Assembly (NCBI GenBank): GCA_013821605.1
Contig: JACDGP010000027.1
Coordinates: forward strand, 1 to 50,769
DNA length: 50,769 bases
Direction: 5' to 3'
DNA from: Herpetosiphonaceae bacterium
GTDB taxonomy: Bacteria > Chloroflexota > Chloroflexia > Chloroflexales > Kallotenuaceae
The stretch's first letter is position 1; each line of letters begins with the position of its first letter. Positions 16,480-49,744 of the stretch are shown one piece after another. The translations under genes and the position numbers were made by a program. A model generated the notes under the pieces. The model was not told the origin of the DNA. It did no database searches and saw only the letters and a program-made list of their open reading frames with translations.

Positions 16480-16510
16480 AAAACCCCCTTCCCATCGGAG
16501 CGGGAAGAGG
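16480..16510 (-). terminator. Intrinsic terminator of the Uma2 pseudogene
   Basis: On the minus strand CCTCTTCCC pairs with GGGAAGGGG (9 bp, one G-T wobble) around an 8-nt loop, followed by TTTT. It lies 32 bp downstream of the broken Uma2 gene. Confidence 0.7.
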
Positions 16511-16541
16511 CAAATGAGTACTCACGTATACAGGCTGCCGT

Positions 16542-17091
16542 TTAGACGAAGACATCACGTACTGCTAGTATCCACCCTGGCACCACATCCTCGCCGTCAA
16601 TGGTGTCATCTTCGGTGAGGATGCTAATATCTGCCATAGCGCGATAGACCGCCGCTGTATGCCTACGTGGATTAACGACGAGGACCATGCCAGTCCCTGT
16701 CTGGAGAAATTCGATAACCTTTTCTTCAACATCAGTATATAAATCATGCGGTGAAATGACTTCGATAGCCAAATCAGGTGCGCCGGGCCAATAACCTTCC
16801 TGATCACTGACGGTTACAACCCGTTCACAGCGCACAAACGAGACATCAGGCGCGTACCGTATCAGGATCAGTAGCCAGCTTAAAGCCGGTCTCCGCTGTA
16901 TACACATCACCAAGCTGTTGGTCTCGGACATGTTGTGCTAGAGACAGGGTGATGTTGATGATGATTTTGCCGTGACGATAGCTCGCAGGCGACATGCGGC
17001 GTAGTTCTCCTTGGACTAATTCGTACCGGAAGCCATCGTCGGGCATCTGCAGGAGGGCATCAGCAGTGATAAGCTGTGCTACCGTAGTCAT
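16542..17091 (-). pseudogene. Uma2 family (PD-(D/E)XK) endonuclease gene, broken by a 2-bp deletion
   Basis: From ATG 17091 the frame reads a normal Uma2 start (MTTVAQLITADALLQMPDDG, then RYELVQGELRRM) up to TDPDTVRA and a TGA. In another frame the protein continues as PDVSFVRCERVV, PDLAIEVISPHD and YTDVEEKVIEFL. The expected junction DTVRAPDVSFV is restored by adding one CG unit to the CGCG run at 16851-16854, giving a 183-aa protein, the usual Uma2 length. Uma2 (DUF820) proteins have a restriction-endonuclease fold and unknown biological role, and are numerous in cyanobacteria and Chloroflexota. An intact homologue lies at 40284-40847. Confidence 0.75.
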
Positions 17092-17160
17092 AGGTTCACC
17101 TATAGGTAGATTTTAGCATAGCAGAGTGAGAGGGCGATGCTGCCAAACGAGGAGGCTTGA

Positions 17161-35393: not shown

Positions 35394-35756
35394 ATGGACT
35401 CCCTGCAGCCTTATCTACCGATTGCCATCTTGTTTGTTTTGACGACAGTGCTTGCATTCGTCGTGATCGGTTTGTCGGCGCTGCTTGGTCCACATACTGA
35501 GTCGAAGCGCAAGCTGATGCCGTATGAGTCGGGCATGACGCCGATTGGTGGGGCGATGCGTCGCACGCCGATCCGCTTCTACCTCGTGGCCATGATCTTT
35601 ATCTTGTTCGATATTGAAGTTGTTTTTACCATCCCCTACGCACTGATCTTCCGGCGGCTTGGACTCTTTGGGCTGGGTGAGATGGGTTCATTTGTTGCTA
35701 TCTTGCTCGTCGGCTTGCTGTATGCGTGGAAGAAGGGAGCATTCACATGGGAATAG
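35394..35756 (+). CDS. nuoA: NADH-quinone oxidoreductase subunit A
   Basis: The 120-aa membrane subunit has three helices (about 8-30, 62-85, 91-110). The conserved loop [20 protein letters not shown] and [20 protein letters not shown], including the acidic residues near the membrane, are standard for NuoA. It links the hydrophilic arm to the membrane arm of complex I near the quinone channel. AAGGA lies 6 nt before the ATG. It is the first gene of the operon and overlaps nuoB by 10 bp. Confidence 0.96.
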
Positions 35757-36313
35757 AAGAAAAAGCCGGTGATCTGGGCATTATTACTACCACGCTGGAC
35801 GCAGCGGTCAATTGGGGCCGTACCAATGCGATGTGGCCGATGTTGTTTGGTCTGGCCTGCTGTGCGATCGAAATGATGGCCGCCCAGGCAGCCGATTATG
35901 ATCTGTCACGCTTTGGCATGGAGATTAACCGCGCCTCGCCTCGTCAAGCCGACCTGATGATCGTTGCCGGTCGCGTGTCGCGCAAAATGGGTCCAGTTAT
36001 ACGCCAGCTGTATGATCAAATGAGCGATCCGAAGTGGGTCATCGCGATGGGCGATTGTGCCTCCTGTGGAGGGGTGTATAACAACTATGCGATTGTCCAG
36101 GGCGTTGACGAAATTGTACCCGTCGATGTATATGTCGCCGGCTGCCCGCCACGTCCGGAAGCGTTGATCCACGGGATTATGATGCTGCACGAAAAAGTGC
36201 GCCGTGAAAAGCTGGCTCCACGCAAGAAAGAACTCGACGTGGCGTCGGGTCGCCCGGTCTTCCGCCTTGAAAGTGGTGGTACTGAGGTTCGTGAAGCTGT
36301 GGGGGTCAAATAA
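35747..36313 (+). CDS. nuoB: NADH-quinone oxidoreductase subunit B
   Basis: The 188-aa subunit carries the N2 cluster, the last iron-sulfur centre before quinone. The tandem Cys38-Cys39 ([11 protein letters not shown]) is followed by GDCASCGG and [14 protein letters not shown], which supply the remaining ligands. The ATG at 35747 lies inside the nuoA end, preceded by AAGGGAG; an upstream in-frame codon lacks support. Length and motifs are normal. Confidence 0.96.
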
Positions 36314-36837
36314 TGGCGCTGACGAACGCCACCGTGCGGGAAACACTGCAGACACGCTTCGGGGCGGGCATCCTTGAGACTAGTGAGTTTCGGGGTGACC
36401 TGACGTTGACGCTTGATCCGCAAGCGTTGGTGCCGGTCGCGCTTTTCTTGCGCGAAGCTCCTGAGTTGCAATATATTCTGCTATCGAGCGTGACCGGCGT
36501 CGACTACTATGGTCGCGAGCCACGCTTTGAGGTGGTGTATCACTTTACAGCGCTTGAGCATGGTCATCGCGTTGCACTCAAAGTTGGTGCCAACGAAATT
36601 GATCCGCATGTGCCTAGCCTCGCGCCGATGTTCCCGACGGCTAACTACCAGGAGCGCGAAATTTATGACATGTTTGGCATCATCTTCGATGGCCATCCCG
36701 ATCTCCAACGCATCTTGATGCCTGACGAATGGGATGGCTTCCCGCAGCGCAAGGACCAGCCACTGGTCTACGAAGAGGTCGCCTTTACCTTCAACCACGA
36801 TGCAATCGACGCTCAAAAACCCTATGCAGATAAGTAA
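36313..36837 (+). CDS. nuoC: NADH-quinone oxidoreductase subunit C
   Basis: The 174-aa 30-kDa-type subunit includes YILLSSVTGVDYYGREPRFE and the signature YQEREIYDMFGIIFDGHPDL with RILMPDEWDGFPQRKD. It packs against NuoD in the peripheral arm. Its ATG overlaps the nuoB stop (TAATG). It is separate from nuoD, unlike the fused nuoCD of E. coli. Confidence 0.95.
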   Translation: MALTNATVRETLQTRFGAGILETSEFRGDLTLTLDPQALVPVALFLREAPELQYILLSSVTGVDYYGREPRFEVVYHFTALEHGHRVALKVGANEIDPHVPSLAPMFPTANYQEREIYDMFGIIFDGHPDLQRILMPDEWDGFPQRKDQPLVYEEVAFTFNHDAIDAQKPYADK

Positions 36838-36854
36838 GGGATAGGGAGCTTGTT

Positions 36855-38198
36855 ATGGCTATCGCAGAACCAAGACCACACATAAGCTTGCCACCGGTTG
36901 CATCAGCGCCGGTCAGCACAGGTGCCTTTCCATCGGGTCAAGCTATTGCGGCAGCCGCGAGCGAGATGCAGGTGCCGTCGCCGCGCCAAATCGTCGCCGC
37001 AAACAAACGCCGGATTCAAAATGATCCTACTGGTGAAGGCTCGATGGTACTCAATATGGGCCCCCATCACCCCTCGACGCATGGTGTTTTACGCTTGGCC
37101 GTCGAGCTAGCGGGCGAAACGGTGCTCCAACTTGCGCCCGACGTAGGCTTTCTGCATACTGGCATCGAAAAAACGATGGAGTCGAAGACCTACCAAAAAG
37201 CGGTGGTTCTAACCGACCGGACCGACTATCTCGGACCCATGATCAACAACCTGTCTTACGCACTGGCTGTCGAAAAGCTACTAGATTGCGAAATTCCACC
37301 ACGGGCGCAGGTGGCGCGCGTTCTTTTCTCTGAGTTGACGCGGCTCAACAGCTACCTGGTCTGGCTCGGTACGCATGCCCTTGACCTTGCCGCTATGAGC
37401 GTCTTCCTGTACTGCTTCCGCGAGCGTGAATACTTGCTCGACATCTTCGAGCTCGTGTCGGGGGCGCGCATGATGACCAGCTATATTCGACCTGGTGGCT
37501 TGGCTTACGACTTGCCCGCCGAATTCAAGCCCACTGTCCAGCGCTTCCTTGATATCATGCCCGGCCATATCGACGAGTATGAAGCGCTGCTGACCGAGAA
37601 CCCGATCTGGAAAGAGCGCACCGTCGGTGTCGGTACGATCAACGCCGTCGATGCCTTAGCTGTGGGCATGACCGGCGCTAACTTGCGCGCTAGCGGTGTG
37701 GCCTATGACGTCCGTAAGTTGTTCCCCTACTCAGGCTACGAGCAATACGACTTTAAGCTCATCACCGGCACGCACGGCGACACCTATGACCGCTACCTCG
37801 TGCGCATAGCTGAAATGCGCGAAGCAGTCAAGATCGCCCAGCAGGCGCTCGACAACCTGCCGGATGGTCCCTACGCGACCTCGGATCGCAAAATCTGGCC
37901 GCCTTCGAAAGAAGAGATCACGTACTCAATGGAGTCGCTGATCCACCACTTCAAACTCTGGACCGAAGGATTTAAACCACCGGTTGGCGATGCGTATGTT
38001 GCAGTTGAGTCGGGCCGTGGCGAACTAGGTTGTTATGTTGTTAGTGACGGCTCGAATAAGCCCTGGCGGGTCCACTTCCGAGCACCATCGCTCATTAATC
38101 TGCAAGCTCTGCCACATATGGCCAAAGGGCGGATCTTTGGTGACTTGATCGCCATGATCGCTTCGCTCGATCCGGTGCTGGGAGAGGTTGACCGCTAG
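36855..38198 (+). CDS. nuoD: NADH-quinone oxidoreductase subunit D
   Basis: The 447-aa 49-kDa-type subunit has MGPHHPSTHGVLRL near residue 68, the quinone-site loop with the essential His. It also has TDRTDYLGPMINNLSYALAV and the C-terminal SDGSNKPWRVHFRAPSLINL. It forms the quinone cavity with NuoB. The first 55-60 residues are a low-complexity Ala/Ser/Pro extension that most NuoD proteins lack; the ATG at 36855 is kept, though a later start is possible. Confidence 0.96.
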   Translation: MAIAEPRPHISLPPVASAPVSTGAFPSGQAIAAAASEMQVPSPRQIVAANKRRIQNDPTGEGSMVLNMGPHHPSTHGVLRLAVELAGETVLQLAPDVGFLHTGIEKTMESKTYQKAVVLTDRTDYLGPMINNLSYALAVEKLLDCEIPPRAQVARVLFSELTRLNSYLVWLGTHALDLAAMSVFLYCFREREYLLDIFELVSGARMMTSYIRPGGLAYDLPAEFKPTVQRFLDIMPGHIDEYEALLTENPIWKERTVGVGTINAVDALAVGMTGANLRASGVAYDVRKLFPYSGYEQYDFKLITGTHGDTYDRYLVRIAEMREAVKIAQQALDNLPDGPYATSDRKIWPPSKEEITYSMESLIHHFKLWTEGFKPPVGDAYVAVESGRGELGCYVVSDGSNKPWRVHFRAPSLINLQALPHMAKGRIFGDLIAMIASLDPVLGEVDR

Positions 38199-38260
38199 CT
38201 TAGATTGAAACTGGTGGTCATGGGGTCAACCCCACGGCTCTGCGTAGATAAGAGGATTAT

Positions 38261-38776
38261 GTGCTGAAAGATAAATACGCTAGCGAGATCGCGCAAATGT
38301 TGGCGAAATATCCGGTCAAGAATTCGGCAGTTATTCCCTTGTGCTACCTCGCCCAGGATGAGTACGGTTATCTGAGCATCGACCATCTACAGGAAGTCGC
38401 CGACATTCTCCAGATGCCATATACCGATGTTTATGAGGTAGCGACGTTCTACACGTTGCTCTATACCGATCCCGTCGGCAAGTGGGTCTTGCAGGTTTGC
38501 GACGATAACCCTTGCTGCTTCACAGGTGGTGAAGAGTTGGTTGCTGAACTTGAAACACAGTTGGGCATCCAGGCGGGAGAGACTACGGCAGACAAGCAAT
38601 GGACCTTGCAGCGTGTCAAGTGCTTAGGAGGCTGCCATGGTGCACCGATGCTGCAGGCAAACCTGGACTTCTATTACGGCATAACACCCGACAAGGTACC
38701 GGCTTTGCTTGAAACGCTGCTGCAACAGGAGCAACGCGGCACAATGAGTATCTCGGGACGCTTCGCTGAACGATAA
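38261..38776 (+). CDS. nuoE: NADH-quinone oxidoreductase subunit E
   Basis: The 171-aa 24-kDa-type subunit binds a [2Fe-2S] cluster (N1a) through Cys80, Cys85 (QVCDDNPCCF), Cys121 and Cys125 (CLGGCHGAPM). It is part of the NADH dehydrogenase module with NuoF and NuoG. It starts with GTG; AGAGGA lies 5-6 nt upstream and no ATG is available in frame. The N-terminal helical domain is of normal length. Confidence 0.95.
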   Translation: MLKDKYASEIAQMLAKYPVKNSAVIPLCYLAQDEYGYLSIDHLQEVADILQMPYTDVYEVATFYTLLYTDPVGKWVLQVCDDNPCCFTGGEELVAELETQLGIQAGETTADKQWTLQRVKCLGGCHGAPMLQANLDFYYGITPDKVPALLETLLQQEQRGTMSISGRFAER

Positions 38777-38786
38777 GGATTGAGCT

Positions 38787-40268
38787 ATGGCTGGCATCTA
38801 CGAAAACGGGCAAGGCGCCGATGGGGCGAACAGCGGTACGCCGCAACTGGGTCGTATCTTTGAGCATGGTTACCCCGGCGGCCCCGCCAACGGCTTTGGC
38901 TCGGAGTATCCCAACCCTTTTTTGAAGCAACATATTGTATATGCCAACCGTGACGTACCCAACATTCGTGAGCTTGCGGTATATCGCCAGCATGGGGGGT
39001 ATGAAGTGGCGCAGCGCGTGCTGACGACGATGCAGCCGCAGGCGGTGGTAGACGAAGTCAAGAAATCGGGGCTGCGCGGGCGCGGTGGTGCTGGCTTTCC
39101 CACAGGCGTTAAATGGGGCTTTATTCCGAAAGATATTTTTCCCAAATATTTGGTCTGCAACGCCGACGAATCGGAGCCAGGCACTTTTAACAACCATGAG
39201 ATCATCGATCTTAATCCGCACCAGTTGATCGAGGGCATGATTATCTCGGGGTTTGCGTTCGGCGCGACCGCCGGCTATATCTATATTCGTGGCGAATATG
39301 CGTATGGTGCACGCGTTCTAGAGCAGGCGATTGCCGAAGCCTACGCCGCCAAGCTGCTGGGTAAGCAGTTGTGGGGCACCACCGTTGACTTCGACCTATA
39401 TGTACATCGGGGTGCTGGGGCGTATATCTGTGGCGAAGAGACAGCACTGCTGGAGTCGCTGGAAGGCAAAATCGGCCAGCCGCGGGCAAAGCCGCCCTTC
39501 CCGGCAGTCGCAGGGCTGTATGCTAAGCCAACCGTCATTAATAATGTTGAGACACTGACGAACGTGCCGCGCATTATGCAACATGGCGCGGATTGGTACC
39601 GCAGCTTCGGGACAGAAAAGTCGCCGGGGACCAAGGCTATCTCGATCAGCGGCCATGTGAAGCGGCCCGGCAATTATGAGGTGCCACTGGGCATTACCGT
39701 ACGCCAGTTCATTTATGATGTAGCAGGCGGTATCCGCGATGGCCACGAGCTCAAGTTCATCGTGCCCGGGGGTGCCTCGTCGCCCTGGCTGATCAACAAA
39801 CCTGAGCATCTTGATGTACTGCTCACCTGGGACGACATGGCAGCGGCAGGTTCGATGCTGGGCTCCGGGGCAATGATCGTGCTTGACGAGACGACTTGTG
39901 TGGTCGCAGCTTCGATGAAGATCGATGAGTTCTTTAAACACGAGTCGTGTGGCAAATGCACCCCCTGTCGTGAGGGCACGCACTTCCTCACGAAAGTATG
40001 GGAGCGGATCGAGCACGGGCACGGACGGATGAGCGATATTCCGCTGCTTGACGACCTAGGGAAGCAAATGTCGGGCGGCAAGTGCTTCTGCTTGCTCGGA
40101 CCTTCAGCAGTGGCGCCTGTTACCTCGGCGCTCAAGTTTTTTAGCGATGAGATTCGCCAGCATATCGAGCTAGGTCGCTGTCCACTGGGCTACAACCATC
40201 CGCCGGTCGCGGCCCACGCCGTCGAAGGTGGGGTGCATACAGGCGCAACCTCGGTACTGGCGCGCTAG
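38787..40268 (+). CDS. nuoF: NADH-quinone oxidoreductase subunit F
   Basis: The 493-aa subunit holds the NADH site, FMN and cluster N3. Glycine-rich GLRGRGGAGFPTGVKWGF and VCNADESEPGTF are the nucleotide/FMN signatures. Cys387, Cys390 and Cys393 (SCGKCTPCREGT) with Cys433 bind [4Fe-4S]. The first 50 residues are longer than in E. coli NuoF. AAGGA precedes the ATG. It begins 10 bp after nuoE and is followed by an inserted Uma2 gene instead of nuoG. Confidence 0.96.
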   Translation: MAGIYENGQGADGANSGTPQLGRIFEHGYPGGPANGFGSEYPNPFLKQHIVYANRDVPNIRELAVYRQHGGYEVAQRVLTTMQPQAVVDEVKKSGLRGRGGAGFPTGVKWGFIPKDIFPKYLVCNADESEPGTFNNHEIIDLNPHQLIEGMIISGFAFGATAGYIYIRGEYAYGARVLEQAIAEAYAAKLLGKQLWGTTVDFDLYVHRGAGAYICGEETALLESLEGKIGQPRAKPPFPAVAGLYAKPTVINNVETLTNVPRIMQHGADWYRSFGTEKSPGTKAISISGHVKRPGNYEVPLGITVRQFIYDVAGGIRDGHELKFIVPGGASSPWLINKPEHLDVLLTWDDMAAAGSMLGSGAMIVLDETTCVVAASMKIDEFFKHESCGKCTPCREGTHFLTKVWERIEHGHGRMSDIPLLDDLGKQMSGGKCFCLLGPSAVAPVTSALKFFSDEIRQHIELGRCPLGYNHPPVAAHAVEGGVHTGATSVLAR

Positions 40269-40283
40269 AAGCGAAGAGGGGCT

Positions 40284-40847
40284 ATGACGACGGAGCTACG
40301 TTGGACATCTGCCGATCTCGAAACGCTGCCCGATGATGGCAAGCGGTACGAGATTATCGACGGAGAGCTACAAGTGTCAAAGCAACCGCATTGGCATCAT
40401 CAATTTACTTGCGTTCGACTTGTCCGATTTCTTGACCAATGGAACGAGCAAACCAATGCGGGGGTCGTTAATATGGCTCCCGGCCTCATCTTTGCTGATG
40501 ACGAAGATGTTGTTCCTGATGTCGTGTGGATTAGCCGCGAGCGGCTAGCGAGAGTGCTTGGACCCGAGGGACGACTACACGCTGCACCTGAGTTGGCCAT
40601 CGAAGTCTTATCGCCTGGCAGTACCAACGAGCGCCGCGACCGCGAAGCAAAGCTCAAGCTATATTCACGGCATGGCGTGCAAGAATATTGGATCGTTGAC
40701 TGGCGTACCCAGCAAATCGAACTCTACCGGCGTACAGAGGCTGTACTCAAATTGAGCGTTACCCTGTATAAAGATGATATGTTGCAATCGCCGCTTCTAC
40801 CCGGATTTACATGCATTGTTGGGCAGATATTTGCAGAAGCTATGTAG
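40284..40847 (+). CDS. Uma2 family (PD-(D/E)XK fold) endonuclease-like protein inside the nuo operon
   Basis: The 187-aa protein matches Uma2 (DUF820): TTELRWTSADLETLPDDGKR at the start, then RYEIIDGELQVS. Putative active-site acids lie in FADDEDVVPDVVWI and PELAIEVLSPGS, and REAKLKLYSRHGVQEYWIVD carries the conserved Lys. No frameshift or missing core residue is visible, so it looks functional. The family has a restriction-endonuclease fold but unknown biology. It sits 15 bp after nuoF and 54 bp before nuoG in the same direction and must be transcribed with complex I. Its product has no expected part in respiration; it is probably a horizontally spread gene lodged without polar damage. Confidence 0.88.
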   Translation: MTTELRWTSADLETLPDDGKRYEIIDGELQVSKQPHWHHQFTCVRLVRFLDQWNEQTNAGVVNMAPGLIFADDEDVVPDVVWISRERLARVLGPEGRLHAAPELAIEVLSPGSTNERRDREAKLKLYSRHGVQEYWIVDWRTQQIELYRRTEAVLKLSVTLYKDDMLQSPLLPGFTCIVGQIFAEAM

Positions 40848-40901
40848 CGTACTTGGATCGTGTTTACGGCCTGACCTGCTAACCTTAACAACGGATAGTA
40901 T

Positions 40902-43676
40902 ATGCCAGATGTAACTCTGACAATAGATGGCAAAGAGATCACGGTGCCGCAGGGCACCGGGACGGTTGAAGCGGCGCGCGCTGCTGGAATCGAGATCCCC
41001 GTCTTTTGCCATCACCCTAAACTTCAGCCGGTTGGCATGTGTCGGATGTGTCTGGTTGAAGTTGGGACGCCCAAGATGGACCCGGCTACGAAAAAGCCGA
41101 TGATCGGCGAAGACGGCAAGCCCGTGATCGCGATGATGCCGAATCTTCAGGTGGCGTGTACAAACCCCGTATCGAACGGCATGGTTGTCAAAACCAACAC
41201 GGCCGAAGTCGAATTCGCACGTAAGGGTGTGCTAGAGTTCTTGCTGACTTCCCACCCGCTCGACTGCCCAGTATGCATCAAAGGTGGCGAGTGCCCACTC
41301 CAGAATTTGACGATGGGGTATGGTCCAGGTGTGTCGCGCTTTGACTACGCCGATAAAGTTCACTTTCAAAAGCCGATCTCGTTGAGCCCGCTGATCGACC
41401 TGGATCGTGAGCGGTGTATCTTGTGCTCGCGCTGTGTGCGGTTTGAAGACGAAATCGCGGGTGATGCGGTGCTGGGCTTCGCGAACCGGGGGCGGGGCTG
41501 GATGATTCAGTCGAAGTCCAATCCGTCTTTCAACTCGAAGTTTTCAGGCAACACCGTCGATATTTGCCCGGTCGGTGCCTTGATGAGCCATGACTTCCGC
41601 TTTGCCGGACGCGTATGGGAAGTCAAGCCGGTACCGTCGATCTGCCCACATTGTCCGGTCGGCTGTAATGTGACGCTCGATATGCGCTATCGAGATATCA
41701 AGCGGGTCCAGCCACGAGAAAACGATTGGGTCAACGAAATCTGGCTGTGCGACCGGGGCCGCTATGGTTATCACTTTGTCGATAGTCCCAAGCGACTGAC
41801 CAAGCCACTGGTGCGCCGCAACGGCGTACTGGTCGAAACAACCTGGGCTGCAGCACTCGAAGAGATCGCCCAACGGCTGGCGGGAATTAACCGAGGCTAT
41901 CCGGGCACCGTCGTCGGCGGTATTGCCTCGGGACGGCTGGCGAACGAGGATTTATATCTGTTCCAGAAGCTGTTCCGCGATTTGCTTAAGTCGTCCAATC
42001 TCGACTGCCGCACCGGAGCGCCCGAGGAGGCCGAGCACGACGACTTAGCGTATGCATTTGGCTTAGGCAGTGGCAGCGATTTGAGCAAGCTTGGCAAGGG
42101 CACGAGTGTGCTGGTCCTGGGCGCGGATCCCGAGGAAGAAGCACCGGTGTATGTACTGCGCTTAAGGGGCATCAAGCGGCGGGGCGGGGAATTGATCGTT
42201 GCCAATGGACGAGCTACCAAGCTCGATGCCTCGGCGACGCACACGGCTCGCTTCCGCTATGGCTTCGAAGCACTGTTTATGTTTGGGGTCTTGTCGGCGC
42301 TATTAGAGGCGGGGGCCGAAAACAAAACCTTTAGTGGTGAGCGAGTTAAGAACTTAGGGATGCTGCGGCAGGCGCTGGAACCCTACAATGTGGGCGCTGT
42401 TGCACAGCAAATCGGCGTAAGCGAAGAAACGATCCGGGGGGTCGCGACATCGGTTGCTGGAGCCGAAAATTTGATCGTAATGTACGGGCGTGAGGCAATC
42501 GCCGCCGGCACGCCCTTGCTCCAGGCGATTGGGAACCTGCTGCTCGTCACGGGGCATGTCGGCAAGGCCAACAACGGTGCGCTGCCACTTCTGCGCTATA
42601 ACAACAGCCGTGGTGCACTGGATATGGGCGTACGGCCTGATAAAGGCCCAGGCTACACACCGCTGCCACAAGCAGGCATGACGGCACGTGAGATGATCGC
42701 TGGGGCGGTGAGCGGCAAGCTTAGGGCCTTGTATCTGGTCGGCAGTGATCCGGCGGCGGCGTATCCGCAGGCTGCGGCGGCGCTCGGCAAGCTGGATCTG
42801 CTGATCGTCCAAGAGTTGTTTATGACAGCAAGCGCCGAACAGGCGCACTTTGTGCTACCGGCAGCCTCCTTTGCCGAGCGTGATGGTACGTATACGAATT
42901 CTGAGCGACGAGTACAGCGTTTCCGCCAGGCACGTGATGCCGTGGGCGAAAGCCGCCCGGACTGGCAAATCTTCGCAACGTTGGGTCGCGAACTGGCCAA
43001 GCTCCTGCCGCAGGAACAGATGACCCAGGTGGGCAAGGCCAGCGCGAAGCCTGCCGCCAAAGGGCAGGCCAAGGTGGTTACACAAGCCGCGCCGGGCCCT
43101 CGTCCATGGGTCTATCGTTCGAGCGACGACGTCCATGCCGAAATTATTCAAAACGTGGGTATTTATGCTGGACTGAGCTACAGTGCCTTGCGTGGTCAGG
43201 CCGGTGGCGTATGGGGCCGCCAGGCGACGCATGATGCCATCTTCTATGACGGTACCTCGTATGCCAATACAGAGGGCGTTGGCGCACAATGGCCCGCACT
43301 GGCGGAGCAGTCACGCCTAGCATTTGACCTCGTCTTCTCCAAGCCCACGCCGGTGGTAGCCGATGGGCAGCAGTTTACGCTGGTAGCAGCAGCACGTCTA
43401 TACGACGATGGGACCTTGATGCAGCCCTCGGAGTTGCTGCGCTTCTGGGTCGCGCAACCCTATGTGGGGTTGTCCCAACCTGATGCACAGCGACTAGGGG
43501 TTGAGTCAGGAGACAAGGTACGCTTAACCTCACAGGCTGGTCAATTAGAGCTCTTCGCGCGAGTTGATCGCGAAGTAGGAGTTGGGATTGCGCTGGTACC
43601 GGATCTCGAAACTATCCCACTGGCGGCCGTGCAAACCGGGGTCGTTACACCAGTACGCATCGAAAAGGTGGCCTGA
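40902..43676 (+). CDS. nuoG: NADH-quinone oxidoreductase subunit G
   Basis: The 924-aa subunit has an N-terminal [2Fe-2S] domain (Cys36, Cys47, Cys50, Cys86) and a His/Cys cluster (His118, Cys122, Cys125, Cys131). A [4Fe-4S] ligand set follows (Cys172, Cys175, Cys178, Cys222). Cys248, Cys251 and Cys255 form the extra N7-type cluster seen in some bacteria. A molybdopterin-oxidoreductase-like domain comes after these and normally lacks the cofactor. The C-terminal part includes a lysine/alanine-rich linker near 705-730. It carries electrons from NuoF toward NuoB. The operon resumes here after the Uma2 gene. Confidence 0.95.
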   Translation: MPDVTLTIDGKEITVPQGTGTVEAARAAGIEIPVFCHHPKLQPVGMCRMCLVEVGTPKMDPATKKPMIGEDGKPVIAMMPNLQVACTNPVSNGMVVKTNTAEVEFARKGVLEFLLTSHPLDCPVCIKGGECPLQNLTMGYGPGVSRFDYADKVHFQKPISLSPLIDLDRERCILCSRCVRFEDEIAGDAVLGFANRGRGWMIQSKSNPSFNSKFSGNTVDICPVGALMSHDFRFAGRVWEVKPVPSICPHCPVGCNVTLDMRYRDIKRVQPRENDWVNEIWLCDRGRYGYHFVDSPKRLTKPLVRRNGVLVETTWAAALEEIAQRLAGINRGYPGTVVGGIASGRLANEDLYLFQKLFRDLLKSSNLDCRTGAPEEAEHDDLAYAFGLGSGSDLSKLGKGTSVLVLGADPEEEAPVYVLRLRGIKRRGGELIVANGRATKLDASATHTARFRYGFEALFMFGVLSALLEAGAENKTFSGERVKNLGMLRQALEPYNVGAVAQQIGVSEETIRGVATSVAGAENLIVMYGREAIAAGTPLLQAIGNLLLVTGHVGKANNGALPLLRYNNSRGALDMGVRPDKGPGYTPLPQAGMTAREMIAGAVSGKLRALYLVGSDPAAAYPQAAAALGKLDLLIVQELFMTASAEQAHFVLPAASFAERDGTYTNSERRVQRFRQARDAVGESRPDWQIFATLGRELAKLLPQEQMTQVGKASAKPAAKGQAKVVTQAAPGPRPWVYRSSDDVHAEIIQNVGIYAGLSYSALRGQAGGVWGRQATHDAIFYDGTSYANTEGVGAQWPALAEQSRLAFDLVFSKPTPVVADGQQFTLVAAARLYDDGTLMQPSELLRFWVAQPYVGLSQPDAQRLGVESGDKVRLTSQAGQLELFARVDREVGVGIALVPDLETIPLAAVQTGVVTPVRIEKVA

Positions 43677-44800
43677 TGCTGAGAGTGTTAATTCTGCTGG
43701 TTCAATCCTTAGCGGTCTTTTTGATCGCGACGACGGGCTTCGCGTATCTGACGCTGTTCGAGCGGCGATTGCTAGCCCGGCTGCAACATCGTATCGGTCC
43801 AAATCGGGCCGGTCCAGGCGGTGCCTTTCAACCACTGGCAGATGCCGTCAAGCTGTTCTTTAAGGAAGACATTACACCAACCGAGGCGGATAAGGTCGTT
43901 TATACCATTGCCCCGGCGCTCGCGATGATCCCAGCCATTCTGCTGTTTGCGGTCATCCCAGTCGGTGGTCCATTCCGCTTGCTGGGCCAAGGTACGCCTC
44001 AAACCATTGGGCCGGGCCTTCAGGCAGCCGGGACACCGTTACAGCTGGCACCCGGCATCTCGGTCGGCGTACTGTTTTTGCTGGCCGTTACATCGATCGG
44101 CGTATATGGCATCACGCTAGGCGGCTGGTCATCAGCCAACAAGTACTCGATGTTGGGCGGCATTCGCTCGTCGGCACAACTCATCTCGTATGAACTGGCG
44201 CTGGGGCTCTCGGTGATGGTACCGGTGATGCTGGCCTCATCACTAAATCTAGAGAAGATCGTTGAGAACCAGGGACCACTTTGGAACGTGTTGAAGCCGG
44301 TTGGCTTTATCGCTTTTGGCGTTTTTTGGCTGGCCTCGTCAGCTGAAGTCGTGCGCGCACCCTTCGACTTGGTCGAAGCCGAACAAGAGCTAGTCGGCGG
44401 CTATAACACCGAGTATTCGTCGATGAAGTTCGCGCTCTTTTTCATGGCCGAGTATATCAAGCTGATTGCCGTCAGTGCAATCGGTGTAACATTGTTCTTT
44501 GGTGGCTGGCATGGCCCCGGTGTTGAACGACTTTATGCCGCTGCGATCCAGCAAAACAGCGGCTTGCTGTTCAATCTGGCTGCACTAGCGTCACTGGGCT
44601 ACTTCTTGATCAAATTGATCATTTTCCTGGCCTTCTCGGTGCTAGTACGGGCCACGATCCCGCGTATGAAGTACGACCAACTCATGGACCTGGGGTGGAA
44701 GCGGTTGCTGCCAATATCTTTAGCTACCGTTGCAGTGACGGCGATTGGCGCAGTCTTGATCGGGCCCAGCGTTCCATTCCTGTCGCGACTGTTTTCCTAG
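43676..44800 (+). CDS. nuoH: NADH-quinone oxidoreductase subunit H
   Basis: The 374-aa membrane subunit has about eight helices. FERRLLARLQHRIGPNRAGP near 28-47, DAVKLFFKEDITPTEADK, the acidic quinone-site loop APFDLVEAEQELVGGYNTEY, and ATIPRMKYDQLMDLGWK are NuoH signatures. It couples quinone reduction to the membrane arm. Its ATG overlaps the nuoG stop (TGATG). Confidence 0.96.
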   Translation: MLRVLILLVQSLAVFLIATTGFAYLTLFERRLLARLQHRIGPNRAGPGGAFQPLADAVKLFFKEDITPTEADKVVYTIAPALAMIPAILLFAVIPVGGPFRLLGQGTPQTIGPGLQAAGTPLQLAPGISVGVLFLLAVTSIGVYGITLGGWSSANKYSMLGGIRSSAQLISYELALGLSVMVPVMLASSLNLEKIVENQGPLWNVLKPVGFIAFGVFWLASSAEVVRAPFDLVEAEQELVGGYNTEYSSMKFALFFMAEYIKLIAVSAIGVTLFFGGWHGPGVERLYAAAIQQNSGLLFNLAALASLGYFLIKLIIFLAFSVLVRATIPRMKYDQLMDLGWKRLLPISLATVAVTAIGAVLIGPSVPFLSRLFS

Positions 44801-44851
44801 GGATGGCACGCGTTGGACGTGACAGGTGGTTTTTGGAGGAAGTAAGCTAGC

Positions 44852-45346
44852 ATGTTTGATTTTATTAAAGGTTTGGGGACCACGGCTAAGTACCTGTTTA
44901 AGAAGCCGGTAACGGTCTCGTACCCCGAAGTGAAGCGGCCGGTCCGTGAGCGCTTTCGGGGACGACACGAGCTTAAGCGCTTTGAAAGCGGTCTGGAGCG
45001 GTGCATTGGTTGCTCGCTGTGTGCGGCAGCTTGTCCGGCGGATGCAATCTACGTGCAGCCGGCTGAAAACGATCCACTGCATCCAGTCGGCGTAGGTGAA
45101 CGTTATGCCGAAAAATATGAGATCAACATGATCCGTTGTATCTTTTGCGGCTATTGTGAAGATGCCTGTCCAACCAATGCGATCGTGCTGGAGCACGATT
45201 ATGAGTTGTCGTTCTATGATCGCAAGTCGGCGGTCTACACTAAAGAGATGTTATTGGTCGCGCCGGACAAAGGGCACGGGGAGCCATCACCGCTTTTGCT
45301 TAATCTGAACCGTCCACCGAACCCACCAGCGCAAATCGATTTGTAA
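44852..45346 (+). CDS. nuoI: NADH-quinone oxidoreductase subunit I
   Basis: The 164-aa subunit carries two [4Fe-4S] clusters, N6a and N6b, in ferredoxin motifs CIGCSLCAAACPADAI and CIFCGYCEDACPTNAI. It passes electrons to NuoB. GGAGGAAG precedes the ATG. It is followed after about 20 bp by an intrinsic terminator-like hairpin, unusual inside a nuo operon. Confidence 0.96.
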   Translation: MFDFIKGLGTTAKYLFKKPVTVSYPEVKRPVRERFRGRHELKRFESGLERCIGCSLCAAACPADAIYVQPAENDPLHPVGVGERYAEKYEINMIRCIFCGYCEDACPTNAIVLEHDYELSFYDRKSAVYTKEMLLVAPDKGHGEPSPLLLNLNRPPNPPAQIDL

Positions 45347-45363
45347 TCTTCGGTTAGAATACG

Positions 45364-45410
45364 GAGACTTCGGACTGGGCCATGACCGTAGGACGAAGTC
45401 TCTTTTGTTT
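45364..45410 (+). terminator. Intrinsic terminator-like hairpin inside the nuo operon
   Basis: GAGACTTCG (45364-45372) pairs perfectly with CGAAGTCTC (45394-45402), 9 bp around a 21-nt loop, followed directly by TTTTGTTT. It lies between nuoI and nuoJ, 22 bp before the nuoJ start. Confidence 0.65.
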
Positions 45411-45431
45411 GAAAGGTAGCTGAGGTTTCGC

Positions 45432-45956
45432 ATGGAACTGGTGGTCTTTCTCATCACCGCCTTGGTTTCGGTCGCATGTGCGATCGCGATGATTCTGAGC
45501 AAGAATGCGGTGCACAGTGCCTTGTTCCTCGTGCTCAACTTCTCGGCCGTCGCGATCCTGTATCTCTTGCTCCATGCACCCTTCCTGGCCATGATCCAGA
45601 TCACGGTATATGCCGGTGCGATCATGGTGCTTTTTCTGTTCGTGATTATGTTGCTGGGAGCAGAGCAAGGCGAAGGCAACGACCCCATCAGATGGCAGCA
45701 GCCAGTGGCGATCGTGCTTGGGCTTTTGTTGTTGGCCGAGGGGGGCCTGGTGTTTTTCCGCTCGGGCAATATCATTCCCACGCCGGGAAATGGCACCGCA
45801 TTCCCGACCGATCCGGGGGCAACGGGAGGCATCGCCGAGCTGTTATTTACCAAGTATTTGCTGCCATTTGAAATGACATCGATCTTGTTGCTGGTAGCGC
45901 TGCTCGGAGCTGTGGTGCTGACGATAAAAAGCCGCGAGAAAGAAGGAGCAAGCTGA
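45432..45956 (+). CDS. nuoJ: NADH-quinone oxidoreductase subunit J
   Basis: The 174-aa membrane subunit has five helices, including [20 protein letters not shown] and [20 protein letters not shown], the conserved helix with the pi-bulge that controls quinone coupling. It starts behind the internal terminator-like hairpin; no clear new promoter is visible, so it depends on readthrough or an unseen promoter. Its stop overlaps nuoK (TGATG). Confidence 0.95.
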
Positions 45957-46258
45957 TGGTGCCCATCAATTATTATGTTCTTTTGAGCGCGCTCTTGTTC
46001 ACGACCGGTGTGATCGGCGTCCTAACGCGGCGTAACGTGATGATCATGTTTATGTCGATCGAGTTGATGCTGAATTCGGCTAATCTAGCGCTGGTTGCCT
46101 TTGCCCAGGCGCGTAACGATATTGAAGGTCAAATTCTGACATTCTTTGTGATTACGGTAGCGGCTGCCGAGGTGGCGGTCGGGCTCGCTTTGTTGGTGGG
46201 CATCTTTCGTACCAAGCGCACTATCAACGTTGACGATATCAGCACAATGAAGGGTTAA
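45956..46258 (+). CDS. nuoK: NADH-quinone oxidoreductase subunit K
   Basis: The 100-aa subunit has three helices. The membrane Glu in [15 protein letters not shown] (residue 36 region) and a second in [14 protein letters not shown] are proton-path residues of MrpC/NuoK-type proteins. Normal length; overlaps the nuoJ stop by one base. Confidence 0.95.
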
Positions 46259-46265
46259 GATACAG

Positions 46266-48206
46266 ATGGACGTGTTATATACCCTCCTGACCGTGTTGGT
46301 CGTGCTACCTCTGCTGGGCGTAGTCGTAAACACCTTCTTTATCCGGCAGGGACGCACCGCCGGCTTGATCGCCAGTGGCGTGATGGTAGCAGCCTTCGTC
46401 GTTACACTCGTCATCCTGGTGCAGTTACTCGGCCTCGCGCCGGAAAAACGAGTGGTGGACTTCACCCTGTACAACTGGATCGAAGCCGGTCCGCTGCGCG
46501 TGCCCTTCGGCTTTTTGCTCGACCCACTGTCGATGGTGATGCTGTTGTTGATCACCGGCGTCGGTACTCTAATTCATATCTACTCAATTGGCTATATGGC
46601 ACACGATGCCCGTCCGGTGCGCTATTTTGTGTACTTGAACCTGTTCGTGACGGCCATGCTGATCCTGGTGCTGGCCAACAACTACCTGGTGTTGTTCCTT
46701 GGTTGGGAAGGTGTGGGCTTGTGCTCGTTCTTGTTGATCAGCGCCAGCTTCGAGCGTAAAGTGTCGCAGGATGCCTCGCTCAAAGCGTTCATCATGAACC
46801 GCATCGGTGACTTTGGCCTGATGCTGGCCATCTTGGCGATCTATAAGCACTTCGGCACCTTGAACTTCGGGGCAGTCTTTCCACGAGCGGCACAGGTGCT
46901 GGGCGGCCAGGCAATTAATTTCGCAGGTGGACCGATCGGCCTGGCAACGGCCATCTGCTTCTTGATGTTTATTGGGGTTGCGGGTAAGTCGGCACAGATT
47001 CCACTGTTTGTATGGCTGCCGGACGCTATGGCCGGTCCAACGCCCGCATCGGCGCTGATTCACGCTGCAACAATGGTTACATCGGGCATCTATCTGATCG
47101 CCCGCAACCATGCGATCTTTGCCCTATCGCCGGCGACCAGTAACTTCGTGGCGACGATCGGGGCACTGACCGCTTTTGTGGCGGCCTCAGCGGCGATCGG
47201 TCAATATGATATCAAAAAGGTGCTCGCCTATTCGACGGTGTCACAGCTGGGCTTTATGGTAGCCGCAGCCGGTCTAGGAGCCTATACCGCCGCGATGTTC
47301 CACCTGCTGACACACGGTATCTTCAAGGCACTCTTGTTCCTAGCTGCGGGCGCGGTGATCCACGGAGCACATGACGTCCAGGATATGCGGCGGATGGGTG
47401 GCTTTAAGCGAGCAATGCCCCGGACCTATTGGACGTATGTCTTCGGTGCGCTAGCACTGTCCGGCATCTTCCCATTCGCAGGCTTCTGGTCCAAGGATGA
47501 TATTGTTGGAGCTGCCTTCCACAATTATCCGCAGACCGGCTCACATCCAATCATCGGCGTCATCCTGATCGCGAGCGCCGGGTTGACCGCCTTTTATATG
47601 GCGCGCCAGATCGCGCTGGTCTTTCATGGCTCACAGCGCGACACCACCTACCATCCGCATGAGAGTGAGCCAATTATGACGCTGCCACTAGTCATCCTTG
47701 CGATTGGCGCGCTGATCGGCGGCCTCATCAACTTGCCAACCTTTGTACCAGGCGTTGGCGAAGGGCTGGGGCGGTTTTTCGAGCCGGTCTTTGTAGGCAG
47801 TGATGCTGTGCCGTTCAGTCCCCTGCTCGCAGTCTTAACTCTGGTGATTGCACTGGGCATGGGCTATTTAGGCTGGCAAACATATGCGCATCGTACCTGG
47901 AAAGCGAAGTTCCGCGATCCGATCTCACGCTTTATCCCGGCGTTTGAGGCATTTGAAACGGCCTTCGGCTCGGATGAGTATGTGCAATTCTTTATACGCG
48001 GCTTCCGTGCCACAGCCGGCTTCTTGTCGCGCATCTTTGACCCGCTTGGCATTGATGGACTGGTCAACGGAGCAGCGCGGCTGGTTGGACTAAGCGGCAG
48101 GGAGGTGGGACGCGGAGAGTCCGGCTATCTCCGTAACTATACCATGGTCTTTTTGGTGGGCGCGGTCGCAGTCATCGGCTATTTCGGCTTCGCGGCCCTA
48201 CGTTAG
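46266..48206 (+). CDS. nuoL: NADH-quinone oxidoreductase subunit L
   Basis: The 646-aa antiporter-like subunit has some 14-16 helices. FLGWEGVGLCSFLLI carries the conserved helix-5 Glu, GKSAQIPLFVWLPDAMAGPT the helix-7 Lys, and FHLLTHGIFKALLFLAAGA the helix-12 region. The C-terminal lateral helix and last anchor (GYLRNYTMVFLVGAVAVIGY) are present. It is the distal proton pump of complex I. Confidence 0.96.
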   Translation: MDVLYTLLTVLVVLPLLGVVVNTFFIRQGRTAGLIASGVMVAAFVVTLVILVQLLGLAPEKRVVDFTLYNWIEAGPLRVPFGFLLDPLSMVMLLLITGVGTLIHIYSIGYMAHDARPVRYFVYLNLFVTAMLILVLANNYLVLFLGWEGVGLCSFLLISASFERKVSQDASLKAFIMNRIGDFGLMLAILAIYKHFGTLNFGAVFPRAAQVLGGQAINFAGGPIGLATAICFLMFIGVAGKSAQIPLFVWLPDAMAGPTPASALIHAATMVTSGIYLIARNHAIFALSPATSNFVATIGALTAFVAASAAIGQYDIKKVLAYSTVSQLGFMVAAAGLGAYTAAMFHLLTHGIFKALLFLAAGAVIHGAHDVQDMRRMGGFKRAMPRTYWTYVFGALALSGIFPFAGFWSKDDIVGAAFHNYPQTGSHPIIGVILIASAGLTAFYMARQIALVFHGSQRDTTYHPHESEPIMTLPLVILAIGALIGGLINLPTFVPGVGEGLGRFFEPVFVGSDAVPFSPLLAVLTLVIALGMGYLGWQTYAHRTWKAKFRDPISRFIPAFEAFETAFGSDEYVQFFIRGFRATAGFLSRIFDPLGIDGLVNGAARLVGLSGREVGRGESGYLRNYTMVFLVGAVAVIGYFGFAALR

Positions 48207-48214
48207 GATCAACT

Positions 48215-49744
48215 ATGACCTCTTTTCCACTCTTGTCGCTGATCCTTTGGCTGCCGGTGGTCGGCGCACTCTTGATGCTTTTGCCACTGTCAGCCCGAAC
48301 AGTCAAAGTAGTCGCCTTGGTAGCGAGCCTCGCAGTTTTTGTGGTGTCCCTGCTGCTCATCCCCGGCTTTGGCCTTTTCAATTCACGGATAGCAGGCCTA
48401 CAGCTGACAGAGAACATGGCCTGGATTCCAAGCTTCGGCATTAACTACCGCTTGGGCATCGACGGCATTTCACTTTGGCTGGTGATGTTGACGACCTTTT
48501 TGACGCCGCTCACTATTCTATCGACCTTCGAGTCGATCAGCACGCGGGTACGGGCGTTTGAAGCCTTTATGCTGATGCTGGAAACCGGGATGTTAGGCGT
48601 CTTCCTGGCCCAAGATTTGTTCTTGTTTTATATCTTTTGGGAATTCACCCTCGTACCGATGTATTTCTTGATCGGGATCTGGGGTGGGCAGCGGCGCATC
48701 TATGCGACGGTCAAATTCTTTTTGTATACCTTCACCGGCTCGGTCTTCATGCTGCTGGCGATCATTGTACTAGGCGTCGTTTATGGACGCAGTACCAATG
48801 GTCAAGTTAACTTCGACCTGCAGGCAGTGACGAAAGCGATCCAGACGAATGGCCTGGGATTGTCGCAGACGACGTTACGCTGGCTGTTCGTGGCCTTCTT
48901 TGCAGCCTTCGCGATCAAGGTGCCGATGTGGCCGTTCCATTCGTGGCTACCGGATGCGCATACCGAGGCACCGACGGCGGGCTCGGTCATCCTGGCGGGC
49001 GTCATGTTAAAGCTGGGCGCTTACGGGTTCCTGCGCTTTAACCTACCGCTGTTCCCTGAGGCAGCACGCTTTTTCGCCCCGGCGATCGGGGTGCTGGCGG
49101 TGATCGGGATTATCTACGGTGCGCTGGTGGCATTCCCGCAAAAGGATATCAAGAAGCTCGTTGCCTACTCGTCGGTGAGTCACATGGGCTTCGTGGTGCT
49201 GGGCATCTTTGCGCTCACGCCGGAAGGTGTTCACGGCGCCATTCTGCAGATGGTCAACCATGGCTTATCCACCGGCGCACTGTTCTTGATCGTCGGCTTT
49301 ATTTACGAGCGGCGGCATACGCGTGACATCGACGCCTTTGGTGGCTTATGGAAGGTGATGCCGGTGTATAGCTTTTTGTCGCTCCTGATCATCTTGTCAT
49401 CGCTGGGGTTGCCGGGGCTCAATGGCTTTGCGGGTGAAGCGACGATCATGTTCGGCACGATGAAGTCAGCGATTTTGGGTTGGCCGTTTGCAGCCTTCGG
49501 GCTGACCGGTGTGATCTTAGCGGCAGTCTACCTGCTGTGGATGTTCCGCAAGGTGATGATGGGTGACGTTAACCAAAATACGGCGGCGATGCGCGATCTT
49601 AATCGCACCGAACTTGCAATCCTGATCCCGTTGATCGTGCTGATCATAGGCATCGGGCTGTATGCGTCGCCAGTTTTCCGAACAATGGACCCGTCGATCG
49701 AGGCGCTCGTCGGGCCGGGTAGTAAGCTCGTCGCCACTCGATAG
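48215..49744 (+). CDS. nuoM: NADH-quinone oxidoreductase subunit M
   Basis: The 509-aa antiporter-like subunit shows FYIFWEFTLVPMYFLIGIWG with the conserved Glu, IKVPMWPFHSWLPDAHTEAP with the helix-7 Lys, and QMVNHGLSTGALFLIVGFIY. About 14 helices. It begins 8 bp after nuoL and ends 19 bp before nuoN. Confidence 0.96.
   Translation: MTSFPLLSLILWLPVVGALLMLLPLSARTVKVVALVASLAVFVVSLLLIPGFGLFNSRIAGLQLTENMAWIPSFGINYRLGIDGISLWLVMLTTFLTPLTILSTFESISTRVRAFEAFMLMLETGMLGVFLAQDLFLFYIFWEFTLVPMYFLIGIWGGQRRIYATVKFFLYTFTGSVFMLLAIIVLGVVYGRSTNGQVNFDLQAVTKAIQTNGLGLSQTTLRWLFVAFFAAFAIKVPMWPFHSWLPDAHTEAPTAGSVILAGVMLKLGAYGFLRFNLPLFPEAARFFAPAIGVLAVIGIIYGALVAFPQKDIKKLVAYSSVSHMGFVVLGIFALTPEGVHGAILQMVNHGLSTGALFLIVGFIYERRHTRDIDAFGGLWKVMPVYSFLSLLIILSSLGLPGLNGFAGEATIMFGTMKSAILGWPFAAFGLTGVILAAVYLLWMFRKVMMGDVNQNTAAMRDLNRTELAILIPLIVLIIGIGLYASPVFRTMDPSIEALVGPGSKLVATR

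Follow-up and report, generated by a model that had tools for sequence, protein, structure and literature searches.

The window, a stretch of 50,769 nucleotides from a Herpetosiphonaceae bacterium (assembly GCA_013821605.1, contig JACDGP010000027.1), carries a complex I operon in which an intact 187-codon Uma2 gene with an ATG start lies between nuoF and nuoG, 15 bp behind the former and 54 bp ahead of the latter (Table 1). All three genes are on the + strand, as originally predicted, and both the coordinates and the Pfam match to PF05685 (127.7 bits vs a cut-off of 27, E 4.3e-37, profile positions 3–169 of 172) agree that the inserted gene is complete. The window genome belongs to Chloroflexales, the order of Herpetosiphon and Chloroflexus. 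The closest NuoF records belong to a MAG (78% identity) and to Herpetosiphonaceae (72–74%). The nuoF–nuoG (F|G) junction is the only nuo–nuo junction in the window that exceeds 100 bp, and the 54-bp spacer is similar in size to the empty F|G junctions of sister genus g2 (48–55 bp in four genomes). A second, broken Uma2 gene, split into two matches, is located elsewhere in the window (16488–17109, - strand).

Table 1. Features at and around the nuoF–nuoG junction, with positions in the window.
Feature	Position	Strand	Basis
Complex I operon nuoA–nuoM, followed by nuoN cut by the window end	35394..49744	+	Gene mapping
nuoF, 5' neighbour	38787..40268	+	Pfam NuoF domains as expected
15-bp spacer; SD-like AAGAGGGG ahead of the Uma2 ATG	40269..40283	+	Sequence read directly
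Uma2 (PF05685/DUF820/COG4636), PD-(D/E)XK-type protein, 187 aa	40284..40847	+	Pfam; model; D79, E107 and K123 kept
54-bp spacer between Uma2 and nuoG, without terminator-like site	40848..40901	+	Terminator scan
nuoG, 3' neighbour	40902..43676	+	Pfam NuoG domains as expected

A scan of positions 38000–43700 gave no terminator-like site in either spacer around Uma2, in line with the original prediction. Two such sites were found on the + strand, one within nuoG and a weak one within Uma2, and the total is at chance level (four found vs 4.7 expected in shuffles). No + strand promoter-like site was detected in the same interval, both sites found being on the - strand. A near-perfect sigma-70-like site (TTGACA-16-GATAAT) runs antisense within Uma2 (40353–40380, - strand), and the total count of these sites is at chance level. 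From spacing and strand it is fair to infer that Uma2 would be co-expressed with the nuo operon, and, with no promoter detected for it alone, it is probably carried on the operon transcript.

The AlphaFold model of the Uma2 protein (12 sequences; pLDDT 89, pTM 0.87) matches 6okh, 9y1l, 3ot2 and 1wdj in Foldseek with TMq values of 0.65–0.88, the best chain per structure giving E values from 2.6e-18 to 1.7e-12. These are solved Uma2-type structures, to which the listing assigns no tested function, and the window protein is accordingly predicted by the model to share the PD-(D/E)XK fold of known members. The active-site set D79, E107 and K123 is present. Of 52 aligned rows, 51 retain all three residues, the exception being the nuo copy of genome G016, which has N for the catalytic Lys; in the nuo copy of G002 several near-invariant residues are changed. 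K123 lies in the model helix 113–129, after the E strand, in agreement with the Lys migration reported for Uma2 proteins (PMC551604). The protein is a putative nuclease that would cut or nick DNA. It also matches the profile PDC-S03 (E 7e-28) of the PADLOC library, which comprises known and candidate defence proteins; 'PDC' presumably denotes a candidate. A literature search on PDC-S03 found no paper, and no tested function for Uma2, a large family, was found in the literature covered. With nuoF and nuoG as neighbours at 15 and 54 bp, the gene has no adjacent antitoxin, as a Type II toxin–antitoxin pair would, and no adjacent methyltransferase, as a restriction–modification system would.

The junction was surveyed in 74 Chloroflexales genomes with a usable NuoF, including G049 with a split hit (82 were searched and eight gave none). 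It holds an intact Uma2 gene in 12 genomes, a Uma2 remnant in five, a PDDEXK_3 gene in six and neither in 51. Intact copies occupy the junction in three families of the order, namely f1 (G000, the window genome, and G002), f3 (G016, G025, G031, G044 and G048) and f4 (G045, G047, G063, G067 and G077); the gene of G063, counted as intact, is cut at codon 130 by the contig end, and its nuoG side lies outside the contig. Decay at this site is repeated. The remnants (G010, G022, G069, G038 and G059) retain one or both gene ends, those of G010 and G022 keeping both ends around a large internal deletion with the same gap length, and one genus contains both occupied (G045, G047) and decayed (G038) alleles. 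Two genomes were counted as empty by judgement: G019 has an in-frame 43-aa ORF, possibly a further remnant, that was not significant in tblastn, and the apparent 1338-bp gap of G080 arose because the NuoF stop was misread, and this genome was also omitted from the NuoF tree. With regard to Uma2, a single recurrent site is therefore found in occupied, decayed and empty form (12, 5 and 57 of the 74, the last including the six with PDDEXK_3), the pattern expected of a homing-type element.

Nuclease genes at this junction are not confined to Uma2. All six genomes of genus g4 (Herpetosiphon; four of the six are so named) carry a GxxExxY/PDDEXK_3-like ORF between nuoF and nuoG, which belongs to a different PD-(D/E)XK family and reached about 135 bits in Pfam in the two of the six ORFs tested. 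The Herpetosiphon ORF (L063–L066) is shortened in two of the six genomes, including H. aurantiacus (L063). G077 has two extra ORFs between Uma2 and nuoG (L235:6293–7015), one with a PIN/VapC match (27.5 bits, Pfam cut-off 23.6) and the other without a family.

The nuoF–nuoG junction is used non-randomly. In 60 mapped operons (59 fetched and that of the window), gaps above 200 bp occur at F|G in 24 of 60 cases vs 29 of 501 at the other twelve junctions together, a count that overstates the case because the operons share ancestry, that leaves out 'far' distances, and that underestimates some gaps (C|D, E|F), as gene starts were set from the window's proteins. By a stricter, upper-bound measure, gaps above 400 bp are seen at F|G in 19 of 60 operons vs 10 of 501 other junctions, again with shared ancestry among the operons. 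Uma2 or a remnant of it is present in 16 of the 60 operons, always at F|G, and was found at no other nuo–nuo junction even when 'far' loci were included; a further weak match in G010 (41 bits) is some 4 kb upstream of nuoF and beyond the nuo genes that were mapped. Sixteen of the 29 large gaps at other junctions were inspected by eye and contained repeats, short ORFs and fragments, with no intact extra gene. The 676-bp nuoE–nuoF gap of G066 (L229) starts, by eye, like a frameshifted DNA methylase gene, and short G+C-rich palindromic repeats fill several nuo junctions in G034 and G049 (L203, L237) of genus g10. When insertion events were counted by hand over 13 junctions, the p values for a hotspot were 0.022 (three of four events), 0.002 (four of five) and 0.22 (two of three), all of them post hoc and varying with the way events are counted. 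The alternative originally posed for this gene was a benign insertion or a functional link. Its first half agrees with the remnants and with the 51 junctions that hold neither nuclease gene, but a benign insertion alone does not explain why one site is used non-randomly.

The Uma2 trees were built from rows of at least 45 bits with a nuo-type panel, which covers 22 of the 29 matches of the window genome and gave 74 rows, minus four shorter than 120 aa. The resulting 70-row tree unites the ten f3/f4 copies in a clade (95/92) and places both f1 copies elsewhere. In a 34-row tree rooted with four outgroup rows, the f3/f4 nuo copies are deep, without a single supported clade, and copies from other operons are nested in a 20-row clade. 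When 18 copies from other classes are added, the f1 copies fall within a 37-row clade (96/94) together with 17 of the other-class copies and 18 Chloroflexales copies located elsewhere, the G002 copy groups with copies adjoining trpS and trpE (95/97), and support for uniting the ten f3/f4 copies is weak (60/86). The arrival in f3/f4 looks old, dating to their common ancestor or earlier, while the two f1 copies may represent separate arrivals, which the trees favour without proving.

A single ancient insertion that predates the divergence of the order, followed by vertical inheritance, many losses and dispersal of copies out of nuoF–nuoG into other operons, is a possible though not a probable account of the same data. 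AU tests allow it, so that the evidence for movement at this site is indirect: a single clade of all 12 copies is not rejected in the 34-row tree (p 0.315) or with the other-class rows (p 0.17), and neither is a clade of the f1 pair (p 0.43). The deep position of the f3/f4 copies, with other-operon copies nested, would agree with such a history, and the remnants show that losses occur. The supported grouping of the f1 copies with other-operon and other-class copies and that of the G002 copy with the trpS/trpE copies speak against it, as do the at least eight changes of Uma2 presence (intact or remnant) required on the NuoF tree, which comprises 73 rows and was made by a quick method.

Kin of the window copy are found in operons of unrelated function and in other classes of Chloroflexota. 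The window genome alone has 29 Uma2 matches, 28 of them above the cut-off, some of which are parts of a single broken gene. The paralogue in this genome closest to the window copy (56%) is flanked by nuoM and nuoN of another complex I cluster (L135:2012–5950, G000:C31), at distances of 38 and 43 bp. In other genomes, with genes named by eye, related copies adjoin trpS and trpE (G036, G070, G067), a MoeA-like gene and aroB (G067), carA and a methylase-like gene (G073), or MoxR/DUF58-type genes (G048, G073), and uvrC-like genes adjoin Uma2 in two outgroup rows (G017, G069). A few copies are solitary or have divergent neighbours (G055, G063, G053). With up to eight candidates scored per genome, 18 copies from other classes are 50–65% identical to the window copy, whereas each genome's top NuoF match in one of these classes is 43–50% identical.

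A preference of Uma2 for operons was considered and rejected for the window genome, as 15 of 20 copies are co-directional with a called upstream gene, vs 38 of 52 genes of the window and 16 of 16 in L238 (20 kb). Upstream neighbours that are co-directional and within 150 bp were counted for 11 Uma2 copies, 33 window genes and 13 L238 genes; all these counts rest on simple codon-score gene calls and are rough. Of 38 non-nuo copies in other genomes, 31 point the same way as the upstream gene, an uncontrolled count. Hox-like F|G junctions within the order were likewise rejected as Uma2 sites, with Uma2 at none of 20 second F loci within the stretch examined. These loci are putatively hox-like, judged from a NuoF identity of 38–43% and, where present, a NuoG match ending near residue 245; one of them, L246, is without a NuoG match. 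Nor is the site common to other Chloroflexota classes: Uma2 was at none of 30 NuoF loci of one class within the stretch examined, although a NuoG match follows in only four of the 30. Conversely, none of 19 other-class Uma2 loci, with flanks of up to 1.5 kb, lies beside NuoF or NuoG; because candidates were scored up to eight per genome and loci inspected for part of the matches, other-class copies beside nuo genes are possible.

The intact copies are under purifying selection in two genera. Across seven pairs, dN/dS is 0.10–0.24 for Uma2 vs 0.01–0.05 for NuoF and 0.03–0.09 for part of NuoG, the pairs being non-independent since six of them come from four g7 genomes and one from g16. Uma2 is constrained, less so than complex I. 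Fourfold sites in Uma2 are less diverged than every nuo window of the same size in four of the seven pairs (overlapping windows as low as Uma2: 0/1472, 0/1131, 0/643 and 0/663) and not in the other three (111/543, 34/535 and 145/518), with nuo genes below 80% identity dropped from the comparison as misassigned. Unexpectedly, several pairs from G045/G047 and genus g7 show fewer synonymous differences in Uma2 than in the surrounding nuo genes. The low synonymous divergence hints at exchange of Uma2 between species, or may have a cause in codon usage. Against such an exchange, in the four pairs inspected the total nucleotide divergence of Uma2 is similar to that of the flanking DNA, with no sign of a co-conversion tract. 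A recent exchange between G000 and G002 was rejected, as identity does not rise locally around the junction.

The account favoured here, with reasonable confidence, is that of a solo Uma2 nuclease that is mobile and dispensable, a co-directional passenger at a recurrently used nuoF–nuoG site, kept for its own activity. Members of this Uma2 subfamily would move between Chloroflexota genomes, and one would have settled between nuoF and nuoG, where it probably rides on the operon transcript. Its upkeep would derive from selfish spread or defence, and not from complex I. The low third-position GC of Uma2 relative to the neighbouring nuo genes also speaks for its mobility. Intact, degenerate and empty alleles within one order are what a cycle of gain, decay and loss would be expected to leave.

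The opposite possibility, that Uma2 serves the NADH-dehydrogenase module in assembly, quality control or redox-coupled regulation and for this reason stays beside nuoF and nuoG, is improbable. Its restriction to one site within the operon, the purifying selection, the second copy between nuoM and nuoN of the other complex I cluster and the cyanobacterial hox operons described below (PMC4963859) would all suit such a link. An accessory protein would nevertheless be conserved with complex I, and 62 of the 74 junctions, including all four of the sister genus g2, are without an intact copy; the same Uma2 clade occurs in operons of unrelated function, and the gene is absent from the 20 hox-like F loci and the 30 other-class NuoF loci within the stretch examined. 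A complex I role is thus unlikely, and the functional link proposed initially finds little room.

The weakest idea, a recent chance insertion or a misassembly in the window genome alone, can practically be dismissed: the lower third-position GC of Uma2 (0.51 vs about 0.65 in nuoF, nuoG and nuoH) would fit it, and the direct repeats around the gene, short or imperfect and not convincingly bracketing it, leave no clear footprint either way, but the presence of Uma2 between nuoF and nuoG in 11 further genomes from three families refutes a recent insertion, and the same gene order in other assemblies (e.g., G002 with four contigs, G045, G047 and four g7 genomes) makes misassembly unlikely.

Feder and Bujnicki (2005) described COG4636/Uma2 as selfish PD-(D/E)XK elements and proposed a homing-like spread, and they also note that the family fills many cyanobacterial genomes (PMC551604). 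The genes analysed here share with their COG4636 the family itself, the migrated catalytic Lys, proliferation and, probably, horizontal transfer (PMC551604). According to that paper, insertion is virtually random and the only recurrent neighbours are other copies of the family (PMC551604), to which one recurrently used junction in Chloroflexales is an exception. Makarova et al. (2009) regarded Uma2 as a likely solo toxin (PMC2701414). A search of the literature on Uma2/DUF820/COG4636 and on Chloroflexi nuoF/nuoG, with subscription papers mostly outside its range, found no description of Uma2 between nuoF and nuoG among the papers listed.

HoxF is a homologue of NuoF, and HoxU is a homologue of the N-terminal part of NuoG. 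In Synechocystis strains 6803 and 6714, hoxF and hoxU are separated by sll1222, a DUF820 gene; seven other strains have TA modules or DUF820 genes near some of their hox genes, and the authors deem a stabilisation of the hox operon likely (PMC4963859). The hox operon including sll1222 is reported to be polycistronic and octacistronic (PMC3933540). As in the window, the genes for the NADH-binding F subunit and for the FeS subunit that follows it have a Uma2/DUF820 gene between them, but Synechocystis belongs to another phylum, the host module is a hydrogenase diaphorase instead of complex I, and the likeness is one of gene position. More speculatively, and rather doubtfully, Uma2 proteins could be free-standing homing-type nucleases with targets in the conserved coding DNA of particular operons, the F–G (HoxF–HoxU) junction being one cognate site that was filled separately in Chloroflexales and in cyanobacteria. 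If so, the order would offer natural occupied, decayed and empty alleles for tests of the mechanism. In any case, a junction with occupied and decayed alleles in one genus and empty ones in a sister genus provides a defined locus for testing the spread and activity of Uma2. The interest of the locus lies in the reuse of one site by two nuclease families and in the DUF820 gene at the homologous hydrogenase junction.
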